Shown: positions 46,595-56,441 of the stretch, piece by piece | Layout of the letters: every line of letters starts with the position of its first letter | Numbering within the stretch: the first letter of the stretch is position 1 | Origin: Stigmatella aurantiaca | Lineage (GTDB): Bacteria > Myxococcota > Myxococcia > Myxococcales > Myxococcaceae | NCBI RefSeq assembly: GCF_900109545.1 | Contig: NZ_FOAP01000008.1 | Coordinates: 186,001-250,000, forward strand | Length of the DNA stretch: 64,000 nt | Direction: 5' to 3' | Position numbers and translations under genes: made by a program | The notes under the pieces: model-generated | Database searches by the model: none | Told to the model about the DNA's origin: nothing | What the model saw: only the letters and a program-made list of their open reading frames with translations

Positions 46595-47188
46595 CTACAG
46601 GTCGATCTCGGAGCCGCGCTTGCCCGGCGTCTCCTCGTCCGGGGGCGGGAGGCGCTCTTCCTCGGGCGGCAGGGGCTCCTCGCCCAGGTCCATGGGGGGC
46701 GCCTCCTCGTCCGGGAGTGCCTCCAGTCCCGGGGGCAATTCGTCGTCCATCGGGGGCTCCATCAGCGGGATGGGCTCCCGGCCGGGCACCTCCACCTCGA
46801 GCCGCTCGAAGGTCCAGGTCCCCCCCACCGAGAGGGCTTCGACGCGCAGGGTGCCGCTGGCCTTGGGGCCCTCGACGGGGATGTTGAGGCTGGCGCGGCC
46901 CTCGCCGCTGTCCGTGTTCACCGAGCCGCGCGGAAAGCCGAACTCGATGGGCGTGCCCAGCACCTCCTGCACCTCGGGGTTCTCCGAGACGAGCGCCACG
47001 GCCTGCTGGTAGGCGTCCGAGGACTTGATGGCGCTGGAGATGAAGTAGAGGCCCAGCGCCCCGAAGCAGCCGCACATGAGCACGGGTGTCAAACAGCCAA
47101 CAGGAACGACCCACTTCCAATTGCGGCCCCACCAGCCCTGCCGCGGCGCCATGTTGCCTTCCGGCATCGTGTTCATCACCCCTCCCAT
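46595..47188 (-). CDS. Coa1-like membrane-anchored protein
   Basis: The 197-residue protein starts at ATG 47188, seven bases below GAGGGAGGG; ATG 47176 is a possible second start. One membrane helix (residues 28-52, VGCLTPVLMCGCFGALGLY) is followed by a domain with SDAYQQAVALVSENPEVQEVLG, LNIPVEGPKASGTL and GTWTFERLEVEV, which matches the Coa1 family of cytochrome oxidase assembly factors. The 60-residue tail is Pro/Glu-rich. Coa1 homologues help assemble haem-copper oxidases in mitochondria, but bacterial relatives have no proven role. It is divergent from the PqqD-like gene, 239 bases away. Confidence 0.75.
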   Translation of the reverse strand: MGGVMNTMPEGNMAPRQGWWGRNWKWVVPVGCLTPVLMCGCFGALGLYFISSAIKSSDAYQQAVALVSENPEVQEVLGTPIEFGFPRGSVNTDSGEGRASLNIPVEGPKASGTLRVEALSVGGTWTFERLEVEVPGREPIPLMEPPMDDELPPGLEALPDEEAPPMDLGEEPLPPEEERLPPPDEETPGKRGSEIDL

Positions 47189-47427: not shown

Positions 47428-47778
47428 GTGGCTGGATTCGTTTCCGACAAAGATGGAGCGGCAGGGCCTGGGACGCCGGGTCTGGACGCGCTGCGCGCCG
47501 TGCCCCGGCTCCATCCGGAGACGGGGGTACAGCGCGTGGGCGGGCGGTTGCTGGCGGCGGGGCCCGATGAGCACCTGCACACCTTCGAGGATGCGCGGGG
47601 CCAGGTGTCCGAGGTGGCCGAGCGCATCATGGAGCTGGTGGATGGCCGGCGGACGGTGGCGGCCATCGTGGCGGTGCTGTGTGACGAGTTCGAGGTGGAG
47701 CCCCAGGCGTGTGAAGCCGACACGGTCGCCTTCCTGCGGCTCCTCGTGGCGAAGAAGGTGCTGGTGCTCGGGCCGTGA
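47428..47778 (+). CDS. PqqD-like peptide-recognition (RRE) protein
   Basis: The 116-residue protein starts at GTG 47428 after GGGAGA. Residues about 25-114 match the PqqD fold: a beta hairpin (VQRVGGRLLAAGPDEHLHTF), the helix SEVAERIMELVDGRRTVAAI, and the winged-helix end CEADTVAFLRLLVAKKVLVL. This fold binds leader peptides of ribosomally made, modified peptides. The N-terminal 25 residues are extra and low-complexity. It is the first gene of a plus-strand set: 65 bases to the giant lipoprotein, then a small Cys peptide, an HprK-like kinase and an S24/S26-GNAT fusion. No PQQ genes or radical SAM enzyme are in the window. Confidence 0.85.
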   Translation: MAGFVSDKDGAAGPGTPGLDALRAVPRLHPETGVQRVGGRLLAAGPDEHLHTFEDARGQVSEVAERIMELVDGRRTVAAIVAVLCDEFEVEPQACEADTVAFLRLLVAKKVLVLGP

Positions 47779-47843
47779 GGCTCCTTGCGCTGATGTCGCG
47801 AGCGGCGGGCGGAACGCCTGACGCTGGAGAGGGTGGGAGACGA

Positions 47844-50800
47844 ATGCGCCGATCGGTATGGCAATGGCTGTTGATGGGGCTCGCGCTGTGGAGTGCGTCC
47901 GGATGCAGCTGCGGGGAGCCACCGGTGGAGTCGGAGCTGGAGGTGGCCTTCGAGAAGCCCACGGACGGCCAGCGCCTGGTGGTGTCCGACGATGAGGACG
48001 CGGCCCAGGACGGCTTCCAGCACGAGGTGGTGGTGCGCGCCCGGGACACCTCGGACCGGCCCTTGAAGCTCGCGGGCGCGAAGCTGGAGCTGCGCACGCC
48101 CTCCGAGCAGGGGTGGACCGAGGGGCCCACGGCCATCCTCGAAGGGGACACGGCGCGCTTCCCGGCGGTGCTGCTGCAGCCGCGCACCAACGTGCTGCAG
48201 GTGACGGTGGAGGAGGCGGGCTCGCGGCGCACGGCCACCCAGCGCATCAGCGTCACGGTGACGTCGGAGCCGCCGTCGGTGGACCTGTCGAAGCCGGCTG
48301 AGGGCCAGGTGCTGCTGGAGGCGGATGACGCGGATCCGCAGATGCCCGGCTACCAGATGCTCTTCAGCCTGAACGCGGTGGGCCTGGCCGGACGCAAGGG
48401 CACGCTCTACTGCGAGCAGGCGTGTGGGGTGCCCCCCACGGAGTTCACCGTGTCTGGCACGGGGCTCACGCAGGTGCCGGTGACGCTGGCCCAGTCGGCG
48501 TGCGAGTCCCAGGAGGCCCAGTGCTACGCGGTGATTCGCAACGGCGAGGACGAGGTGACCTCCGGCCGCCGCCGCATCCGCCTGGACACGGTGGCGCCGC
48601 GCGTGGAGGTGGCCTCGCCCGTGGGGGCGGTGGCGTCCACGACTTTCCGGGTGGAGGCCACCGTGGGCTGTACCGAGCCCGGGGTGCTGGCCACCCTGTC
48701 CCGGCCGGGCGAGCCGGACCTCTCCTCGCCCGTCATCTCCGGCGGGGTGACGTTCCCCGCCGTCACCGTGCCCGTGGATGGCGAGTACCGCTTCACGCTG
48801 CGCGTCTCGGACGCGGGAGGCAACGTCACCACCCGCGAGGTGCCCATCACGGTGGCCAGCACCGTGCCGGTGCTCAAGCTCGTGGTGCCGGAGACCATCC
48901 CCGTGCCTCCGGTGAATGGCCCGTTGGGCGAAGGCGTGCAGGCCGTGGTTCGGGTCCAGGCGGACACGTTGCCGCCCGGCACGGAGGTGCGGTTCTTCAC
49001 CAGCGTCACCGGCACGTTCGCTCACCCCCAGCGGGCGGTGACGGACGCATCGCGCGGGGCGTCCTTCACGGCGCAGCTCGCGGGCGGGGCCAACTCCGTC
49101 CAGGCCTGCGTGCGCAATGCCGCGGGGCTGGAGCAGTGCCAGGCCCAGGCCATCACGGTCAACACGGGCCTGCCCGTCTGCCGCATCATCTCTCCGGTCA
49201 ACGGCGTTCAGGTCTCCCCCCTGGGGGAGGACACGCTGGTCCGCGTCGAGTCGGGGCCTGGCCCCGTCATCGTGGTGGCGCTGGATGCGCAGGGCCAGGA
49301 GCGCGCGCGGAGCGAGGGCCCTGCGTCCTCGGGCTCGGCCGGGGTGCCGCTCAAGCTGAGCGGTGATGGCGCGTACCAGCTCCAGGCGCTCTGCCCCGGG
49401 GGCGCGGTGAGCCAGGTGCTCGCGCTGGGGGTGGACACCACGCCGCCCGCGCTGGCCTTCCACGTGCGCGGCCTGCCCGACACGGAGACCGTCCTGGGCG
49501 CGGGGCTCAACGACACGTCCCTGGCGCCGGGCATCCAGGTGGCCCTGGAGGTGAACACCGAGCCGTACGCGTCGGTGCTCGTCACCGGGTGCGCCATGGC
49601 CGCGGGCGTGGCGGGCCAGGCCGATGCGCGGGGCACGCTCGTGCTGCGCGACGTGTCCGTGCCGTCCAGCGGGACGTGCGAGCTGAAGGTGGCCTCCACG
49701 GACCTGGCGGGCAACACCACCGAGCGGGGCCAGGCGCTGACGCTGGCCTTCTCCCCGGGCTCGCTCGCCTTCGCGGCGCCCGCCATCGGCCGCTACCTGG
49801 GGGCCATGGATGGCATCGTGCTGCCGGCCGGTGGGCTGAGTGTGCCCGTCACGCTGAGCCTGGAGACCCCGGCGGCGGGCACGCTGCGGCTGCTGCGCGG
49901 CTCCACGGAGATCGCCTCGGTGCCGGTGGCCGCGTCCGACCGGACGAAGGTCTTCAGCTCGGTGGAGCTGGAGGAGGGGGCCAACGTGCTGCGCGCCGAG
50001 CTCATCGGCCCCGGGGGCACGGTGGCCTGCGCCACGGTGCTGCTCCTGGTGGACACGCAGCCGGGCAACATCGCCCTGGAGATTCCCGCCGCCTCGCCCG
50101 CCCCGAGCTACGTCGTCCTCTCCGACGTCACGCCCGAGGAGTCCGGCATCCAGGCGCCGCTCAAGTACGCCGCCAATGGGCGCTCGGCGAACGCCGTCGT
50201 GGACATCTGCGCGAGCGTGGCGCCCAGCCTGGATGCCGCGCCCTGCCGGGATGGCTCGGGGTGGTACACCCTGGCGGCCAACGTGCCGGCCTTCACCCCG
50301 GACTTCACCTATCCCGATGGGCGCTATGCCCTGAAGGCCGTGCTGGATGACGGGGCCATCTCCGTCTCCCAGGCGGTGACCATCACGGTGGACAGCACCG
50401 AGCCGGTGGTGCGGGCCGTGGAGCTGGTGGGGGACAGCAATGGGGACCTGCGGCTGAACGCCGCCGAGCTGCCCTCGGGGCCCGTGCAGCTGCGGCTCAC
50501 CATCGATGGGGTGGAGGATGGGCGGCCCGTCCAGGTCCGCAGCGCCGCCAACCCCGGCATCGTCTATGGCCAGGGCAACGCCAGCGGGGGCCAGGTCCGG
50601 GTGTCCCTGGATGCGATGCCCACGGGCATCGAGGCGGACTACGCGCTCGTCGTCACGGTGACGGATGCGGCGGGCAACCAGAACCGGGTGGCCAACCCCA
50701 CGCCGTTCTACCCGCTCAACACGGCGTCCTTCTTCGCGTTCCGCCTGGACCGCGTGCTGCCCTCGCTGGTGGTGAGCGCGCCCACGCGCGCCGAGTTCGG

Positions 50801-53648
50801 CCTCGCGGATGACAGCTCGTCCGCGGCGGGCTTCCAGCTCCAGGTGACGGCCAACACCAGCGCGGACGTAGGGGACAAGGGCATCCGCATGTCGGTGAGC
50901 CCCGGGGGCGACGCGGTGGAGCTGACCCCGCTGCTGTTGGCGGCCACGCACGAGTTCACCCTGGCGGGCGCGGGGCGCACGGAGCACGCCATCACCGTGG
51001 CGGCCGTGGACACCTCGGGCAACGTGTCGACGGTGGTGCGCACCGTGACCGTGGACCGGGAGGCGCCCACCGTGACGCTGGTGGCCCCGCTGGCGGGCAC
51101 CATCTACAACAACACGGACCTGCCCGTTCAGGTGAGCGTCAGCGGCGGGGACGTGAACACGGTGAGCATCTTCTCCCAGGTGGGGAGCTCGCCGGCCACC
51201 GTGGTCGGCACCCTGCCGGTCACCGCGGGCTCCGCCCAGGGCACGCTTAACTTCCCCAGCGGGGTGCAGACCATCTCGGCCGTGGCCCTGGACACCGCCG
51301 GCAACCGGGGCTCCGATACCCACGAGGGCGTGGACGTGCGGATTCCCGGCTGCGCCATCACCCTCACCACCCCCAGCGCGCCGGTGGCCACGCTGCTCGC
51401 CCTGGATGACCTGGATCCTTCGACGCCGGGCTTGCAGTACCGCCTGGTGGGCGTCACCCCTGCGTGCACGGGCCGCCAGGTGGTCCTCTACCGGGGGACG
51501 TCCTCCACGCCGGTGGACGCCACCCCGGCGAATGGGTCCACGGGCGAGTTCTCCTTCGACGTGACGCTCGAGGACGGTGAGCAGACGCGCCTGACGGTGG
51601 AGGTCTTCAACGCCGCGAATCAGCGCTCCGTCGACTTCGTGGACGTGACGGTGGACATCACGCCCCCCGTCATCACCTCCATCTCCCCGGCGCCCACGGC
51701 GCTCTACTTCGTCGCCAACACCAACGCCTACCTCTTCCCGGTGCCCGCGCCGGACCGCGTGGTGGACCTGGCCGCGGGCGGGGATGCCAACGCGGTGTTC
51801 ACGCTCACCGTGGTCCAGGGCGTGGGCAGCACGGTGCGGGCCTTCTACAAGGGCGAGCCCGTCTCGTCGGAGTTCGGGGTCGCCGCCTCGCCGGAGACCC
51901 TGGAGGTGCCCGTGACGCTGCCGCACGGCACGGACGGCACGCTGGAGGTGCGCGTGGTGGATGCCTCCGGGAACACGGCGCGCCACACCGTGGCCGCCAC
52001 CGTGGACGTGGTGCCCCCGAGCGCGCCCACCGTGACGCTGGCGCTGGTGGCCGGCAAGGAGCGGGCTGCCCAGGTGAAGGTGACCTGGACGGCCAGCGGG
52101 GACGATGGGCTGTCCGGCATGCCCGTGGGGTATGACCTGCGGTGGACGGTCAACGCCCAGCTGCTCAACGGCATCGAGAACGAGGCGTCCTTCTTCAGCG
52201 CGCGGGTGAAGCAGGAGACCGGGGCGCTTCTGCCCGCCACCTCCACGTCCTACACGCTGACGGTGCCGCCCCTGGCCCGCTACTCCATCCAGCTCCGGCC
52301 CCGGGACGAGATCGGCAACTACGCGGCCTTCGCCGTCCAGCCGCCGCTCGACAACTTCTGGCGGCAGATGACGGTGACGAACCCCGGCGTGGCGGGCAAC
52401 AGCTACGCCACGTACATCGCCTCGCGGGGAGACCTGAACGCCGACGGCCGGGAGGACCTGGTGGTGACCGGCCTGCTGGGCACGCCGGGCGCGGCGTACG
52501 TGTACTACGGCTCGAGCGACCCGGTGGCGGTGCCGCCGGTGCGCCAGGACCTGACGGTGCCCGAGACGGACTCCCAGGCCTACGGCAACGACTTCGACAT
52601 CGGCGATGTGGGCAACGGCACCGCGGACCTGGTCCAGGATCTGGTGGTGGGCGTGCGCGGCTGGAGCGTCAACGTCGGCCGGGCCTTCCTCTACTTCGGC
52701 CGCAAGGGCCAGGTGCTGGACACCTCGGCGCCCATCGAGTTCCGCCACGACACCAACATCGGCGGGGCCGCGCTGGGCGGCACCGTGAAGATGATCCAGG
52801 ACATCTCGGGCGATGGGCTCCACGAGGTGCTCCTCAGCTCGCACGGTGAGACTCCCGGAAAGGTCTACCTCTTCTACGGACGCTCGCCGGACGCCTGGCG
52901 CGCCCTGGGCACGGGCTGCACCGCCACCGCGGCCTGCGTCGTGCCCACGAGCAAGTCAGACAAGGTCTTCACGGCCCCCACGGGGATGGTCTTCTTCGGC
53001 CGCTCCCGCGGCTATGCCCGCCTGGGGGACATCACGGGCGATGGCGTCGCGGACTTCACCCTCCCGGCCTCGCACGAGAGGGTGAACTCGCTCTACGTTT
53101 ACTCGGGCGCCACCGTGCGCGCGATGGGCCGCAACGTGTCCACCACGGACGCGCTCCAGGTGCTCCACCAGGGCCCGGATACCGAAGGCAACTCGCAGAA
53201 CGGCTTTGGCACCGAGGCCTTCGGCGGGGTGAACCTGGTGGGGGGCCCGGGGCTGGACCTGGTGGCCTCCGCCGCCACCCAGAACAAGGTCTTCGTGTTC
53301 CGGGATGGGGGACCGTCGGGCTTCACCTCGGCCCCGCTCGTCATCGGCGGCGGCGGCCGGTTCGGCAATGCCCTGGCCCTGGGGGACCTGAATGGGGACG
53401 GGCGCGCCGACATCGCCGTGGGCCAGAACATCCTCGGGATGAACGCCGCGGCCGTCTTCTACAACCAGGGCACGCCCGGGGCCGAGTTCGACACGGCCCA
53501 GGAGAACGGCTTCTGGCAGTCCAAGCTGGCGTCCACGACCTCGTTCGGAATCAGCCTGGCCCTCTTGGACTTCAATGGGGATGGAAAAATGGACCTGGCG
53601 GTCGGCGATAGTCAGTCGAACCCAGCCCGAGTCGTGGTGTATTACTAA
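47844..53648 (+). CDS. giant surface lipoprotein: Ig-like modules and C-terminal seven-blade FG-GAP propeller
   Basis: The 1934-residue protein starts at ATG 47844 after a GGTGGGAGA site and has a lipobox ending in Cys21 (LWSASGCSC). GTG 47775, which overlaps the PqqD-like stop, is in frame but would hide the signal peptide. Residues 35-1500 hold Ig-like modules, often joined by VDxxxPxV linkers, and six copies of a DDxxxxxxGxQ element. From about 1510 to the end are seven FG-GAP-like blades with calcium loops such as GDLNADGREDL and LDFNGDGKMDL, forming an integrin-like beta-propeller. It is likely a calcium-dependent surface adhesin. The downstream peptide gene begins seven bases after its stop. 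Confidence 0.88.
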   Translation: MRRSVWQWLLMGLALWSASGCSCGEPPVESELEVAFEKPTDGQRLVVSDDEDAAQDGFQHEVVVRARDTSDRPLKLAGAKLELRTPSEQGWTEGPTAILEGDTARFPAVLLQPRTNVLQVTVEEAGSRRTATQRISVTVTSEPPSVDLSKPAEGQVLLEADDADPQMPGYQMLFSLNAVGLAGRKGTLYCEQACGVPPTEFTVSGTGLTQVPVTLAQSACESQEAQCYAVIRNGEDEVTSGRRRIRLDTVAPRVEVASPVGAVASTTFRVEATVGCTEPGVLATLSRPGEPDLSSPVISGGVTFPAVTVPVDGEYRFTLRVSDAGGNVTTREVPITVASTVPVLKLVVPETIPVPPVNGPLGEGVQAVVRVQADTLPPGTEVRFFTSVTGTFAHPQRAVTDASRGASFTAQLAGGANSVQACVRNAAGLEQCQAQAITVNTGLPVCRIISPVNGVQVSPLGEDTLVRVESGPGPVIVVALDAQGQERARSEGPASSGSAGVPLKLSGDGAYQLQALCPGGAVSQVLALGVDTTPPALAFHVRGLPDTETVLGAGLNDTSLAPGIQVALEVNTEPYASVLVTGCAMAAGVAGQADARGTLVLRDVSVPSSGTCELKVASTDLAGNTTERGQALTLAFSPGSLAFAAPAIGRYLGAMDGIVLPAGGLSVPVTLSLETPAAGTLRLLRGSTEIASVPVAASDRTKVFSSVELEEGANVLRAELIGPGGTVACATVLLLVDTQPGNIALEIPAASPAPSYVVLSDVTPEESGIQAPLKYAANGRSANAVVDICASVAPSLDAAPCRDGSGWYTLAANVPAFTPDFTYPDGRYALKAVLDDGAISVSQAVTITVDSTEPVVRAVELVGDSNGDLRLNAAELPSGPVQLRLTIDGVEDGRPVQVRSAANPGIVYGQGNASGGQVRVSLDAMPTGIEADYALVVTVTDAAGNQNRVANPTPFYPLNTASFFAFRLDRVLPSLVVSAPTRAEFGLADDSSSAAGFQLQVTANTSADVGDKGIRMSVSPGGDAVELTPLLLAATHEFTLAGAGRTEHAITVAAVDTSGNVSTVVRTVTVDREAPTVTLVAPLAGTIYNNTDLPVQVSVSGGDVNTVSIFSQVGSSPATVVGTLPVTAGSAQGTLNFPSGVQTISAVALDTAGNRGSDTHEGVDVRIPGCAITLTTPSAPVATLLALDDLDPSTPGLQYRLVGVTPACTGRQVVLYRGTSSTPVDATPANGSTGEFSFDVTLEDGEQTRLTVEVFNAANQRSVDFVDVTVDITPPVITSISPAPTALYFVANTNAYLFPVPAPDRVVDLAAGGDANAVFTLTVVQGVGSTVRAFYKGEPVSSEFGVAASPETLEVPVTLPHGTDGTLEVRVVDASGNTARHTVAATVDVVPPSAPTVTLALVAGKERAAQVKVTWTASGDDGLSGMPVGYDLRWTVNAQLLNGIENEASFFSARVKQETGALLPATSTSYTLTVPPLARYSIQLRPRDEIGNYAAFAVQPPLDNFWRQMTVTNPGVAGNSYATYIASRGDLNADGREDLVVTGLLGTPGAAYVYYGSSDPVAVPPVRQDLTVPETDSQAYGNDFDIGDVGNGTADLVQDLVVGVRGWSVNVGRAFLYFGRKGQVLDTSAPIEFRHDTNIGGAALGGTVKMIQDISGDGLHEVLLSSHGETPGKVYLFYGRSPDAWRALGTGCTATAACVVPTSKSDKVFTAPTGMVFFGRSRGYARLGDITGDGVADFTLPASHERVNSLYVYSGATVRAMGRNVSTTDALQVLHQGPDTEGNSQNGFGTEAFGGVNLVGGPGLDLVASAATQNKVFVFRDGGPSGFTSAPLVIGGGGRFGNALALGDLNGDGRADIAVGQNILGMNAAAVFYNQGTPGAEFDTAQENGFWQSKLASTTSFGISLALLDFNGDGKMDLAVGDSQSNPARVVVYY

Positions 53649-53653
53649 GGAGA
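53647..53653 (+). promoter_or_regulatory. ribosome binding site overlapping the stop codon of the giant lipoprotein
   Basis: AAGGAGA at 53647-53653 overlaps the stop TAA (53646-53648) and leads to ATG 53656. The arrangement favours coupled translation of the small peptide. Confidence 0.7.
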
Positions 53654-53655
53654 CC

Positions 53656-53793
53656 ATGGCGACGACGGTGCAGCCGGTGACGGTGGACAAGAAGAAGGCG
53701 TACGCGCCTCCCCAGGTGCGCTCGGAGCGGATTCTCGTTCCGGACCTCTTCACGCCCAGCTGCATCATCGACCCCGAGACGGGGGCCTGCTGA
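53656..53793 (+). CDS. 45-residue Cys-ended peptide, candidate RiPP precursor
   Basis: The peptide starts at ATG 53656 behind AAGGAGA and has a Lys-rich turn DKKKAY followed by YAPPQV (Tyr16, Pro19, Val21), which matches the YxxPx[LV] leader motif recognised by PqqD-like RRE proteins in lasso peptide systems. The next element, SERILVPDLF, is hydrophobic and helix-like. The C-terminal 11 residues begin at Ser35, have Cys36 and Cys45 at the two ends, and contain Asp39, Glu41 and Thr42, so they could form a disulfide or take Ser/Thr modification. The gene lies between the giant lipoprotein and an HprK-like kinase. It is too short for automated gene finders and could be missed; the ribosome site and fit to neighbours support it. 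Confidence 0.7.
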   Translation: MATTVQPVTVDKKKAYAPPQVRSERILVPDLFTPSCIIDPETGAC

Positions 53794-53811
53794 GGGAAGG
53801 CGGGTGCCCGG

Positions 53812-54579
53812 ATGCGGCGGCTGCGGTTCGGGGACTGGGGCGTGGCGGTGGACGAAGCGCTCCTCTCCCAGGTGGGCGCACGGTGCGCGCTGGGGCCGTT
53901 TCTCGCGGAGGCGGGCCCCCCGCACCTGTCGCTCCAGGCAGAGGCCCTGACCGAGGGACAGGGCACGCCCCTGGACCCTCGCCGGCCCTTGGGCCCCCGG
54001 TTCCGCATCGAAGGAGACGTGGTGCGCGTGGAGCCCCCCCAGGCCTCTCTGGACACCGAGCTGGCGCTGCGGGTGGGCCTGCAGCTCGCCACCCTGCGCC
54101 AGGGCGGCCTGCTGCTGCACGGCGCGGGCGTGGCGTTCCAGGCGCAGGCGGTGGTGGCGCTCGGGCCCAGCGGGGCGGGCAAGTCCACCTTCACCCGGCT
54201 GTGTGCCCGCGAGGCCGGGGCCGAGGTGCTCTCGGACGAGGTGGTGGGGCTCTACCCTGGGGCGCGCGTGGAGGGCAGCCCGTTCTGCTCGGACCTGGAC
54301 CTGCCCTCGGCACGGGCGCGGGCGCGGCTGGCCGCGGTGCTCTTCCTGGAGAAGGGCGGTGAGGAGCGGCTGGAGGCGGTGTCCGCGCAGGAGGCCATTC
54401 CGGCGATGATGGCGCAGGTCTTCCGGCCGCTGCCGGGGGAGGCGTCGCAGGGCGAGGTGCTCCAGCGGCTGGTGCGCATCACCGAGGGGGTGGCGCTGCG
54501 CCGTTTCATCTTCCGGAAGGACGCCGCCGCGGCGGGCTTCGTGAGGGACTGGCTTCATGGTTGGCACGCCTCCGGTTGA
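53812..54579 (+). CDS. HprK-like (serine kinase-fold) protein
   Basis: The 255-residue protein has HGAGV (His103), the P-loop LGPSGAGKST (Gly118-Thr126) and the acidic motif LSDEVV (Asp142, Glu143), in the order of HPr kinase/phosphorylase catalytic domains. The N-terminal 95 residues are unlike the HprK sensor domain. It lacks the usual HPr substrate context and PTS genes. Kinases of this shape phosphorylate small peptides in some lasso peptide clusters, such as paeninodin. It starts 18 bases after the peptide stop and overlaps the next gene by 23 bases, so the peptide is a likely substrate, which is inference. Confidence 0.85.
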   Translation: MRRLRFGDWGVAVDEALLSQVGARCALGPFLAEAGPPHLSLQAEALTEGQGTPLDPRRPLGPRFRIEGDVVRVEPPQASLDTELALRVGLQLATLRQGGLLLHGAGVAFQAQAVVALGPSGAGKSTFTRLCAREAGAEVLSDEVVGLYPGARVEGSPFCSDLDLPSARARARLAAVLFLEKGGEERLEAVSAQEAIPAMMAQVFRPLPGEASQGEVLQRLVRITEGVALRRFIFRKDAAAAGFVRDWLHGWHASG

Positions 54580-55531
54580 TCTCGCGGCCTTCGTCGAGGC
54601 CTCGCCCCCGGGGCGGCGGCTCTGGCTGCGCGGGGCGGGCCGGAGCTTGTACCCGCTGCTGCGCAGTGGAGACTCGGTGCAGGTGCTGCGCTGCGGGCCG
54701 GAGGCGCTGTCCCGGGGCGATGTGGCGCTCGTGAGGGTGGGCCGCCGGCTCATCGCGCACGTGGTGGTCTCCACCGGGCCGCTGGTGACCGCGTCGCTCT
54801 TGGGCAAGGGGGACCCGGCGGGGGTTCCGCTGGGGCGGGTGACGGCGCTGCGCCGGGGGTGGTGGATCCTCCCGCTGCCCCGGCTGACGCGGTCTTCGCT
54901 CTTTCTGGGCCAGCGGCTGGCGTCCACGCTGTGGTCCCGTCCCCTGGCCCGGGGCGTGGCCCGGCGGCTGCGGGACTTCGCCTTCTCCGGGTGGTCGCGC
55001 CCCATGCGGACGCGGTGGCTGGGGCGGCTCGAGGTGCGCCTGCTCCGGGCCGAGGACCTGGATGCGCTCCTGGTCTTCGCCGGTGAGCGGCTGCTGGTGT
55101 CCTCGGCCTTCCTGCGCCGGCAGCTCCTGGGCCGGTGGGCGCGGGAAGGGGGCGCGATGGGGGCCGCGGCGGGCGCCTTCGACGCGGCGGGGCGCATGTG
55201 CGGCTTCGCCTTCCTGGACAGCTACCGCGAGGAGGGGCTGGCGCTGGACGGGCTCTGGGTCCGCTCGCTGGTGGTGGCGCCGAGGGCCCGGCGGATGGGG
55301 GTGGCCCATCGGCTCCTGGGCTGCTTGCTGGAGGCGGCGCGGAAGCAGGGCGAGCGGCGCATCTACGCGGACGTCGATGAGGACAACGTCACCTCCGTGA
55401 GGACGTTCCGGCGGCGGGGGTTCCGCTTCGCTTCCCCCGAGCTCATCCGGCGCGTCAATGCCGAGTGGGACGCCTCGGGGGGCAGCAAGCCCCTGGTGGC
55501 GCTGGAGCGCATCGTGGATGGCCATGAGTGA
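54557..55531 (+). CDS. S24/S26-peptidase-like domain fused to GNAT acetyltransferase
   Basis: The 324-residue protein has an N-terminal domain (residues about 20-110) with GRSLYPLLRSGDSV (Ser30), the catalytic Ser motif of S24/S26 peptidases, and the strand RGDVALVRVGRRLIAHVVV where the catalytic Lys would lie in the usual KR position; here Ala67-His68 occupy it, so the peptidase may be inactive or non-canonical. Residues 165-320 form a GNAT domain with LWVRSLVVAPRARRMG and YADVDEDNVTSVRTFRRRGF. Such a fusion in one chain is unusual. It overlaps the HprK-like gene (23 bases) and the transporter gene (8 bases). Leader removal plus acylation of the small peptide would fit, but is inference. Confidence 0.78.
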   Translation: MVGTPPVDLAAFVEASPPGRRLWLRGAGRSLYPLLRSGDSVQVLRCGPEALSRGDVALVRVGRRLIAHVVVSTGPLVTASLLGKGDPAGVPLGRVTALRRGWWILPLPRLTRSSLFLGQRLASTLWSRPLARGVARRLRDFAFSGWSRPMRTRWLGRLEVRLLRAEDLDALLVFAGERLLVSSAFLRRQLLGRWAREGGAMGAAAGAFDAAGRMCGFAFLDSYREEGLALDGLWVRSLVVAPRARRMGVAHRLLGCLLEAARKQGERRIYADVDEDNVTSVRTFRRRGFRFASPELIRRVNAEWDASGGSKPLVALERIVDGHE

Positions 55532-56441
55532 GGGAGCGTCCACGCCGGAACGGCGCGCGCAGCTCCAGGCGGACGGGGCGCTGGTGCTGCTCACCGTGCT
55601 CTGGGGCACCTCCTTCCTGGTGGTGAAGGATGCGCTGGCCTATGCGGACCCGTTCTCGTTCCTCGTGCTGCGGTTCGGGGTAGGGGCCTTGGTGCTGAGC
55701 GCCGTGGTGGGACGGCGGCTGCTCTCCCGGGAGAACCTGAAGCGCGGGGCCCTGCTGTCCCTGGTCCTCTTCAGCGGCTACCTGTTCCAGACGCTGGGGC
55801 TGGCGCACACCTCCCCGGCGCGCTCGGCCTTCATCACCGGGCTGTGCGTCCTCTTCGTCCCACTGTTCTCGCTGGTGCTCTTTCGTCAGGTTCCGCGCCT
55901 CCCCACGCTGGTGGGGGTGGTGCTCTCGGCCGTGGGGCTCTACTTCTTCACCCGCGCGGACACGGCCGCCTCCGAGGCCCTCTCCCCGGGAGATCTGCTC
56001 ACGCTGCTCGGCGCGGTGGGCTACGCCCTCCACATCACCCTGACCGCGAGGGTCGCGCGGAAGGAGGGGGCGGGCGCGCTCGTCGCCGTGCAGCTCTGGG
56101 GGGTGGCGCTGCTGTCGGCGGCGTGCCTGCCCTTCGTGGAATTCCGGGTGGTGGTGTCCGAGGCCCTCATCGGCGCGGTGCTCTTCTGCGGCATCGTCAC
56201 CAGCGCCCTGGCGATCAGCGTTCAGACGTGGGCCCAGGCGCGCACGAGCGCCGTGCGCGCGGCGCTCATCTACGCGCTGGAGCCGGTGTTCGCCTCGCTC
56301 TTCTCGGTGTCGCTGGGGTACGAGACGCTGGGCCCCCGGGAGTGGGTGGGCGGCGGCCTCATCGTGCTGGGCGTGGGGGTGGCGGAGGTGGGCGCCGCCG
56401 TGTGGGACCGCTGGCGCGGCCGGGCCCTGGCCAGGGCCTGA
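55524..56441 (+). CDS. EamA (DMT-superfamily) membrane transporter
   Basis: The 305-residue protein starts at ATG 55524 (ATG 55518 is also possible) and has ten hydrophobic segments in two EamA halves, with LLTVLWGTSFLVVKDAL at the start of the first and GDLLTLLGAVGYALHITL at the start of the second. LIYALEPVFASLFSVSLGYE is the usual conserved end. Family members export metabolites, amino acids or drugs. Its overlap with the GNAT fusion could make it the exporter of the peptide set or an unrelated neighbour; no evidence decides. Confidence 0.9.
   Translation: MSEGASTPERRAQLQADGALVLLTVLWGTSFLVVKDALAYADPFSFLVLRFGVGALVLSAVVGRRLLSRENLKRGALLSLVLFSGYLFQTLGLAHTSPARSAFITGLCVLFVPLFSLVLFRQVPRLPTLVGVVLSAVGLYFFTRADTAASEALSPGDLLTLLGAVGYALHITLTARVARKEGAGALVAVQLWGVALLSAACLPFVEFRVVVSEALIGAVLFCGIVTSALAISVQTWAQARTSAVRAALIYALEPVFASLFSVSLGYETLGPREWVGGGLIVLGVGVAEVGAAVWDRWRGRALARA

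Follow-up and report, generated by a model that had tools for sequence, protein, structure and literature searches.

Linear polyphosphorylated peptides (LPPs) are encoded by lppAKBSDN of Paenibacillus alginolyticus and were described in 2026 (PMC13381572). The LPP pathway consists of a SipW-like peptidase, a discrete RRE, an HprK-like kinase, an NTP transferase and an MsbA-like exporter (PMC13381572). The LPP leader follows the consensus YxxPxVLxHQxIxFETxxS, in which Tyr-16 and Pro-13 bind the RRE and are held by Asp70 and Asn33; the S29/H68/D93 triad of LppS is required, cleavage occurs after residue -1, and Ser3 is phosphorylated (PMC13381572). LPPs are stated to be restricted to Bacillota, their distribution is very patchy, and their role is unknown (PMC13381572).

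The locus described here belongs to Stigmatella aurantiaca and lies in a window of 64,000 nucleotides (the whole stretch of DNA that was analysed) from a 9.37-Mb myxobacterial genome assembled into 61 contigs. We propose, with a probability of about 0.6, that it encodes a RiPP pathway of LPP-like, linear-phosphopeptide type that is coupled to a giant lipoprotein on the cell surface. The five ORFs of the set all lie on the + strand with spacings of 65, 7, 18 and -23 bases, as a previous sequence-only reading of the window had claimed (Table 1). The overlap that it reported between the EamA gene and the fusion gene is also found, either from the start given in Table 1 or from an earlier in-frame ATG at 55458. 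A small Coa1/TIM21-like membrane protein (PF08695, E 5e-15) is encoded in reverse orientation (46595-47188, - strand) between the etfA and RRE genes, a location kept in close relatives. A promoter and terminator scan of the locus gave no signal above chance. A literature search of incomplete coverage found no account of the Stigmatella locus.

Table 1. Positions of the genes and sequence features of the locus, numbered from the first nucleotide of the window
Feature	Position	Strand	Remarks
RRE (PqqD/PF05402 fold), 116 aa, putative leader-binding protein	47428-47778	+	GTG start, GGGAG upstream
Giant lipoprotein, 1934 aa	47844-53648	+	Lipobox SGC near N-terminus; Ig-like domains (Big_13); C-terminal beta-propeller repeats (FG-GAP, FG-GAP_3)
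Putative precursor peptide MATTVQPVTVDKKKAYAPPQVRSERILVPDLFTPSCIIDPETGAC, 45 aa	53656-53793	+	Preceded by AAGGAGACC
Leader motif Y16-A-P-P19-Q-V21 (YxxPxV), RRE-binding type	53701-53718	+	Tyr/Pro invariant in peptide alignment
Ser35, candidate phosphosite (position 20 from Tyr16)	53758-53760	+	Inferred
Ser23, alternative candidate phosphosite (position 8 from Tyr16)	53722-53724	+	Inferred
HprK-like kinase, 255 aa	53812-54579	+	P-loop GPSGAGKST at residues 118-126, His103, Asp142-Glu143
S26-GNAT fusion	54557-55531	+	Overlaps kinase gene by 23 bases
S24/S26-type peptidase half, proposed leader peptidase	54557-54994	+	Ser30-His68-Asp86
GNAT acetyltransferase half, lineage-specific	55025-55531	+	PF00583, 48.8 bits
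EamA-type membrane transporter	55518-56441	+	PF00892, 115 bits

The sequence-only reading held that the set matches no described class, a statement that is outdated given the close match to the LPPs of Bacillota (PMC13381572). Both systems encode a discrete RRE together with the precursor, and the RRE contains the Tyr-binding Asp (D70 in LppB). Both possess an HprK-like kinase, recognized here by its modelled fold, P-loop, His and Asp-Glu residues, and an SpI-like leader peptidase with a Ser-His-Asp triad, which is a prediction from sequence in our case. The precursor is short in both and carries a YxxPx[V/I/L] leader, and neither system contains a cyclase. A second, paralogous set of genes in Myxococcota (set 2) displays one additional likeness of its own, in that its Tyr-to-Ser distance equals that from Tyr-16 to the phosphorylated Ser3 of LPPs, whereas the window's set (set 1) places Ser at position 20 instead of 19. 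The Myxococcota leaders lack the HQxIxFETxxS segment of LPPs, and set 2 shares just the Y/P/V positions and the position-19 Ser. Furthermore, the Myxococcota sets are adjoined by a giant exported Ig/beta-propeller protein, their peptidase is fused to a GNAT domain in some lineages, and they are syntenic across the phylum, unlike the patchy LPPs of Bacillota. We do not class the locus as an LPP locus, since searches for the complete leader consensus, for the NTP transferase and for the exporter were negative; neither the family matches obtained at the locus nor the neighbour maps include an LPP-type NTP transferase or an MsbA-like exporter.

Other known systems resemble the locus in fewer respects. 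Paeninodin-type lasso peptide clusters share the discrete RRE, a [Y/W]xxP leader and an HprK-like kinase, but the present locus has no B2 transglutaminase-like protease or macrolactam cyclase, its leaders are mostly of the Y type, and its peptidase is of the S26 type. The HPr-rel-A system (TIGR04352/TIGR04353) likewise combines an HprK-related kinase with a PqqD-like protein, yet the kinase of the window reaches 22.7 of the 200 bits required by TIGR04352, and TIGR04353 is unmatched by the window's RRE. PQQ biosynthesis (PqqA/PqqD) uses the same precursor-binding PqqD fold, but the RRE scores 35 bits against the PqqD equivalog model, below the cut-off of 46, and no PqqE, other pqq gene or radical SAM gene is found among the neighbours. 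The NCBIfam families HPr-rel-A, SynChlorMet, GeoRSP and WgkC were all rejected with scores far below their cut-offs.

The RRE matches PF05402 with 47.5 bits (cut-off 23.4) in a Pfam search and is the sole PqqD-family protein found in the host genome. Its nearest solved relatives in a PDB comparison are PqqD (5sxy) and lasso B1 (5v1u) rather than LppB (9x8z). Asp98 of the RRE aligns with the Tyr-binding Asp70 of LppB, and this Asp is retained in the RREs of 60 of the 61 Y-type loci, where the Y or W type of the peptide was judged by eye at some loci and set to Y elsewhere, including a few loci without an identified peptide. The equivalent of LppB Asn33 is Ser in most set-1 RREs and is retained as Asn in set 2. 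Three W-type leaders were found, and the Asp is changed to Glu in the RRE of two of them (Fisher p 0.004, few events), a sequence pattern that fits leader-RRE co-variation and comes from very few events. A contig scan with a tighter RRE alignment yielded 20 loci, all of them myxobacterial.

The sequence-only reading regarded a Cys peptide as the substrate of the pathway. Comparative sequence evidence supports the peptide as the putative substrate of a RiPP-like pathway, namely the conserved YxxPx[VIL] motif, the Tyr-binding Asp of the RRE at Y-type loci and the co-occurrence of RRE and kinase. The peptide profile matches 37 of 147 genomes, and Tyr16 and Pro19 are invariant in an alignment of 22 homologous peptides. 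Substitution rates in the leader (pN 0.04-0.27, pS 0.35-0.78) indicate purifying selection. Given the homologs in these 37 genomes and a leader pN far below pS, the ORF, as judged by its conservation, does not exist by chance. The leader of set 1 follows the consensus YxxPxVRSExILVPDLFxPS, and the conserved leader precedes a highly variable, often Cys-rich C-terminal part. Position 20 from the Tyr is Ser or Thr in 18 of 35 set-1 peptides; conservation of a hydroxyl is highest at position 8, with Ser or Thr in 33 of 35, and this position falls within the likely RRE-binding stretch. The description as a Cys peptide stands to the extent that the core commonly contains Cys, but Cys is missing in the homologous peptides L095, L198 and L200, and Cys chemistry was therefore dropped as the defining modification. 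Some Cys-less peptides (L198:5504-5701, L200:5548-5724, L095:6399-6524) end in Tyr/Gly/Arg/Pro-rich stretches, such as EYGPYRRPPRR, whose composition suggests a different core chemistry beneath the same leader. A second gene for a YxxP-containing, Cys-rich peptide is located at L106:4308-4490 in genome G137, with no RRE in the stretch read. The peptides of genera g4 and g26 (L052, L057, L088, L089, L091, L092 and L104) contain a lipobox-like LLAC[S/T] or LTGCT motif, upstream of which no signal-peptide-like stretch is found.

Family matches of the kinase are all below threshold. Its predicted model (pLDDT 95.3) adopts a PEPCK/HprK fold and matches PEPCK and HprK/P structures, and His103, the P-loop and Asp142-Glu143 are invariant in 35 aligned kinases. 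The kinase is HprK-like by fold and invariant residues, and its activity is predicted. The S26 half of the window's fusion protein gives, on its own, a sub-threshold family match; of 22 aligned homologs of the fusion, however, 8 match Peptidase_S24, and every one retains Ser30, His68 and Asp86. By analogy with the LPP pathway, this half, to which the sequence-only reading assigned no role, is most likely the leader peptidase. The model of the GNAT half shows a GNAT fold, and its best structural matches include N-alpha-acetyltransferases; the fold matches of the fusion model are all GNAT, and the peptidase half is uninformed by that comparison. The acetyltransferase had been put forward as a modifying enzyme, but it was rejected as a core enzyme because the GNAT half is absent or unrecognisable in several orthologs, and it is also missing from the second set. 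Nothing supports the exporter role once given to the EamA protein, whose gene comes after the set in many relatives and is kept merely as a frequent neighbour; its membership in the pathway is uncertain.

Families across Myxococcota share the gene order etfBA, RRE, giant lipoprotein, YxxP peptide, kinase and S26. Gene maps, drawn with a simple codon-usage gene caller on assemblies that are fragmentary in places, place RRE, giant, peptide, kinase and S26 genes next to flanking etf genes within the window's own family. The RRE-giant-peptide order is also observed in other families of the order (L207 represents one more family of the same order as the window) and in other classes of the phylum, for example at L198, L200, L205 and L206; in some maps no peptide or kinase was identified. 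Of 65 giant/propeller genes, 55 have a YxxP-plus-Cys ORF directly 3', compared with 9 of 679 other genes; these counts describe this locus family and not all large propeller proteins, as the loci were gathered via RRE or kinase homology. One of the nine control ORFs is the terminal part of a giant gene. A permissive pattern detects a lipobox in 41 of 44 giants. Thus, the giant lipoprotein, which the sequence-only reading saw as an oddity inside the set, forms with the RRE and the peptide its most constant part.

The small genes mostly do not occur apart in relatives, since an RRE lies within 12 kb at 32 of 37 peptide loci and a kinase within 12 kb at 30 of 37. The co-occurrence that the sequence-only reading had asked about extends across genomes for the RRE and kinase genes, even when they are unlinked (78 genomes with both, 11 with neither, 7 discordant; Fisher p 3e-9, uncorrected for relatedness). 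Such counts over related genomes are non-independent, and the Fisher values in this study are descriptive. In genera g4 and g26, the kinase gene lies apart from the set and the peptides no longer keep the Ser register; the RRE, giant gene and peptide are still together. Neither set is represented by an RRE, a kinase or a peptide in four nearly complete genomes of genus g7 of the family (G073-G076), which appear to have lost the entire module. Overall, the set is genuine and of old origin. At L097:10355-12494 in family f2, a YxxP peptide gene comes after a giant gene coding for 3023 aa, and a radical-SAM-like protein (MLTVTHKCQLACAHCYQ) is encoded about 860 bases further along; other modifying enzymes may thus join the set.

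The second set is found in many relatives between hisS and miaA, as we take the flanking genes to be from their N-terminal sequences and established knowledge rather than a family search. It comprises an S26 peptidase, an RRE, a small lipoprotein, a ~1000-aa secreted protein, a YxxP peptide and a kinase. The secreted protein contains Ig-like stretches and a BamB/PQQ-like propeller. Within the order, 56 of 145 genomes contain the set-2 peptide, which is nearly invariant in two genera (YxxPAI[L/V]WEQPFVALAQ[I/L]SxCxIPGESEC); in 13 of 14 set-2 peptides, Tyr at position 1 is accompanied by Ser or Thr at position 19. The genome of the window carries the first set only.

How could these components act together? 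By analogy with the LPP experiments, the RRE would bind the YxxPx[VIL] motif of the 45-aa peptide and present the peptide to the kinase and the S26 domain. The HprK-like kinase would then phosphorylate a Ser or Thr near the leader/core junction, and the S26 domain would remove the leader in an RRE-dependent manner. In the lineage of the window, the fused GNAT domain may acetylate the freshly exposed N-terminus. The core would stay linear because no cyclase is present, and it would presumably be exported. A giant exported protein constantly encoded beside the peptide suggests, through this linkage, that the peptide works with that protein; the short, usually Cys-containing core may act on or with the neighbouring Ig/beta-propeller lipoprotein, for example as a ligand or modifier. 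The RiPP-like pathway and its peptide substrate are what we retain of the earlier proposal, which missed the LPP match and whose views of the lipoprotein, the acetyltransferase and the EamA exporter we abandon.

The constant linkage of the peptide to the lipoprotein gene can be read in other ways. The peptide could be a cytosolic adaptor, that is, a phosphorylated regulatory subunit for the RRE and kinase that controls the expression, sorting or quality control of the lipoprotein, with nothing exported. The strictness of the linkage is compatible with this role, neither set has a dedicated exporter, and the near-invariant set-2 core across two genera looks like that of a housekeeping component rather than a secreted weapon. 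However, a peptidase with an intact triad belongs to both sets, and the variable, often Cys-rich C-terminus of set 1 behind a conserved leader is the expected leader/core division, and we regard the adaptor as unlikely. The presence of a small peptide and a large propeller protein in both sets (FG-GAP in set 1, BamB/PQQ-like in set 2) also raises the idea that the core is processed into a peptide-derived cofactor or cross-link of the beta-propeller protein, comparable to PQQ or built-in quinone cofactors. This idea is decidedly improbable, as the window's set contains no redox or radical SAM enzyme, the set-2 propeller matches are BamB-like repeats with no PQQ binding, and the cores differ between the two sets.

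Neighbouring genes may also stay together with no common function, as the flanking etf, MBL and MOSC genes, apparently unrelated, appear to do in close relatives, where they are syntenic as well. Such an account is very improbable given that the RRE, giant and peptide genes remain joined where the flanks change, that a second grouping of these five kinds of gene exists at hisS/miaA, and that the RRE and kinase are lost together. The RRE, the YxxP leader and the HprK-like kinase also occur in paeninodin-type clusters (PMC13381572), and the locus could in principle form a lasso peptide with its B2 protease and cyclase encoded elsewhere. No B2 or cyclase gene is found at the locus or in any mapped neighbourhood, the one marginal Transglut_core3 match (PF13471) in the genome is remote from any RRE, and the peptidase that is present is of a different type, S26; hence, we give the lasso pathway the lowest standing among these explanations.

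The LPP-like pathway coupled to a giant lipoprotein remains our preferred reading. A wider proposal, which we advance tentatively and at less than even odds, is that Myxococcota possess ancient, largely syntenic RRE-dependent phosphopeptides in two parallel forms, one linked to etf and the other to hisS/miaA, and that each serves a giant Ig/beta-propeller lipoprotein of the cell surface as its dedicated ligand or modifier; these RiPPs would have a cell-surface function and not act as secreted weapons. Machinery of LPP-like composition is syntenic throughout Myxococcota and exists there as two parallel copies. Each copy is tied to a single exported multi-domain protein, and this tie provides a genetic clue to the target of such phosphopeptides. 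Laboratory genetics are available for Myxococcus and Stigmatella, so the role of the peptide can be tested by gene removal.
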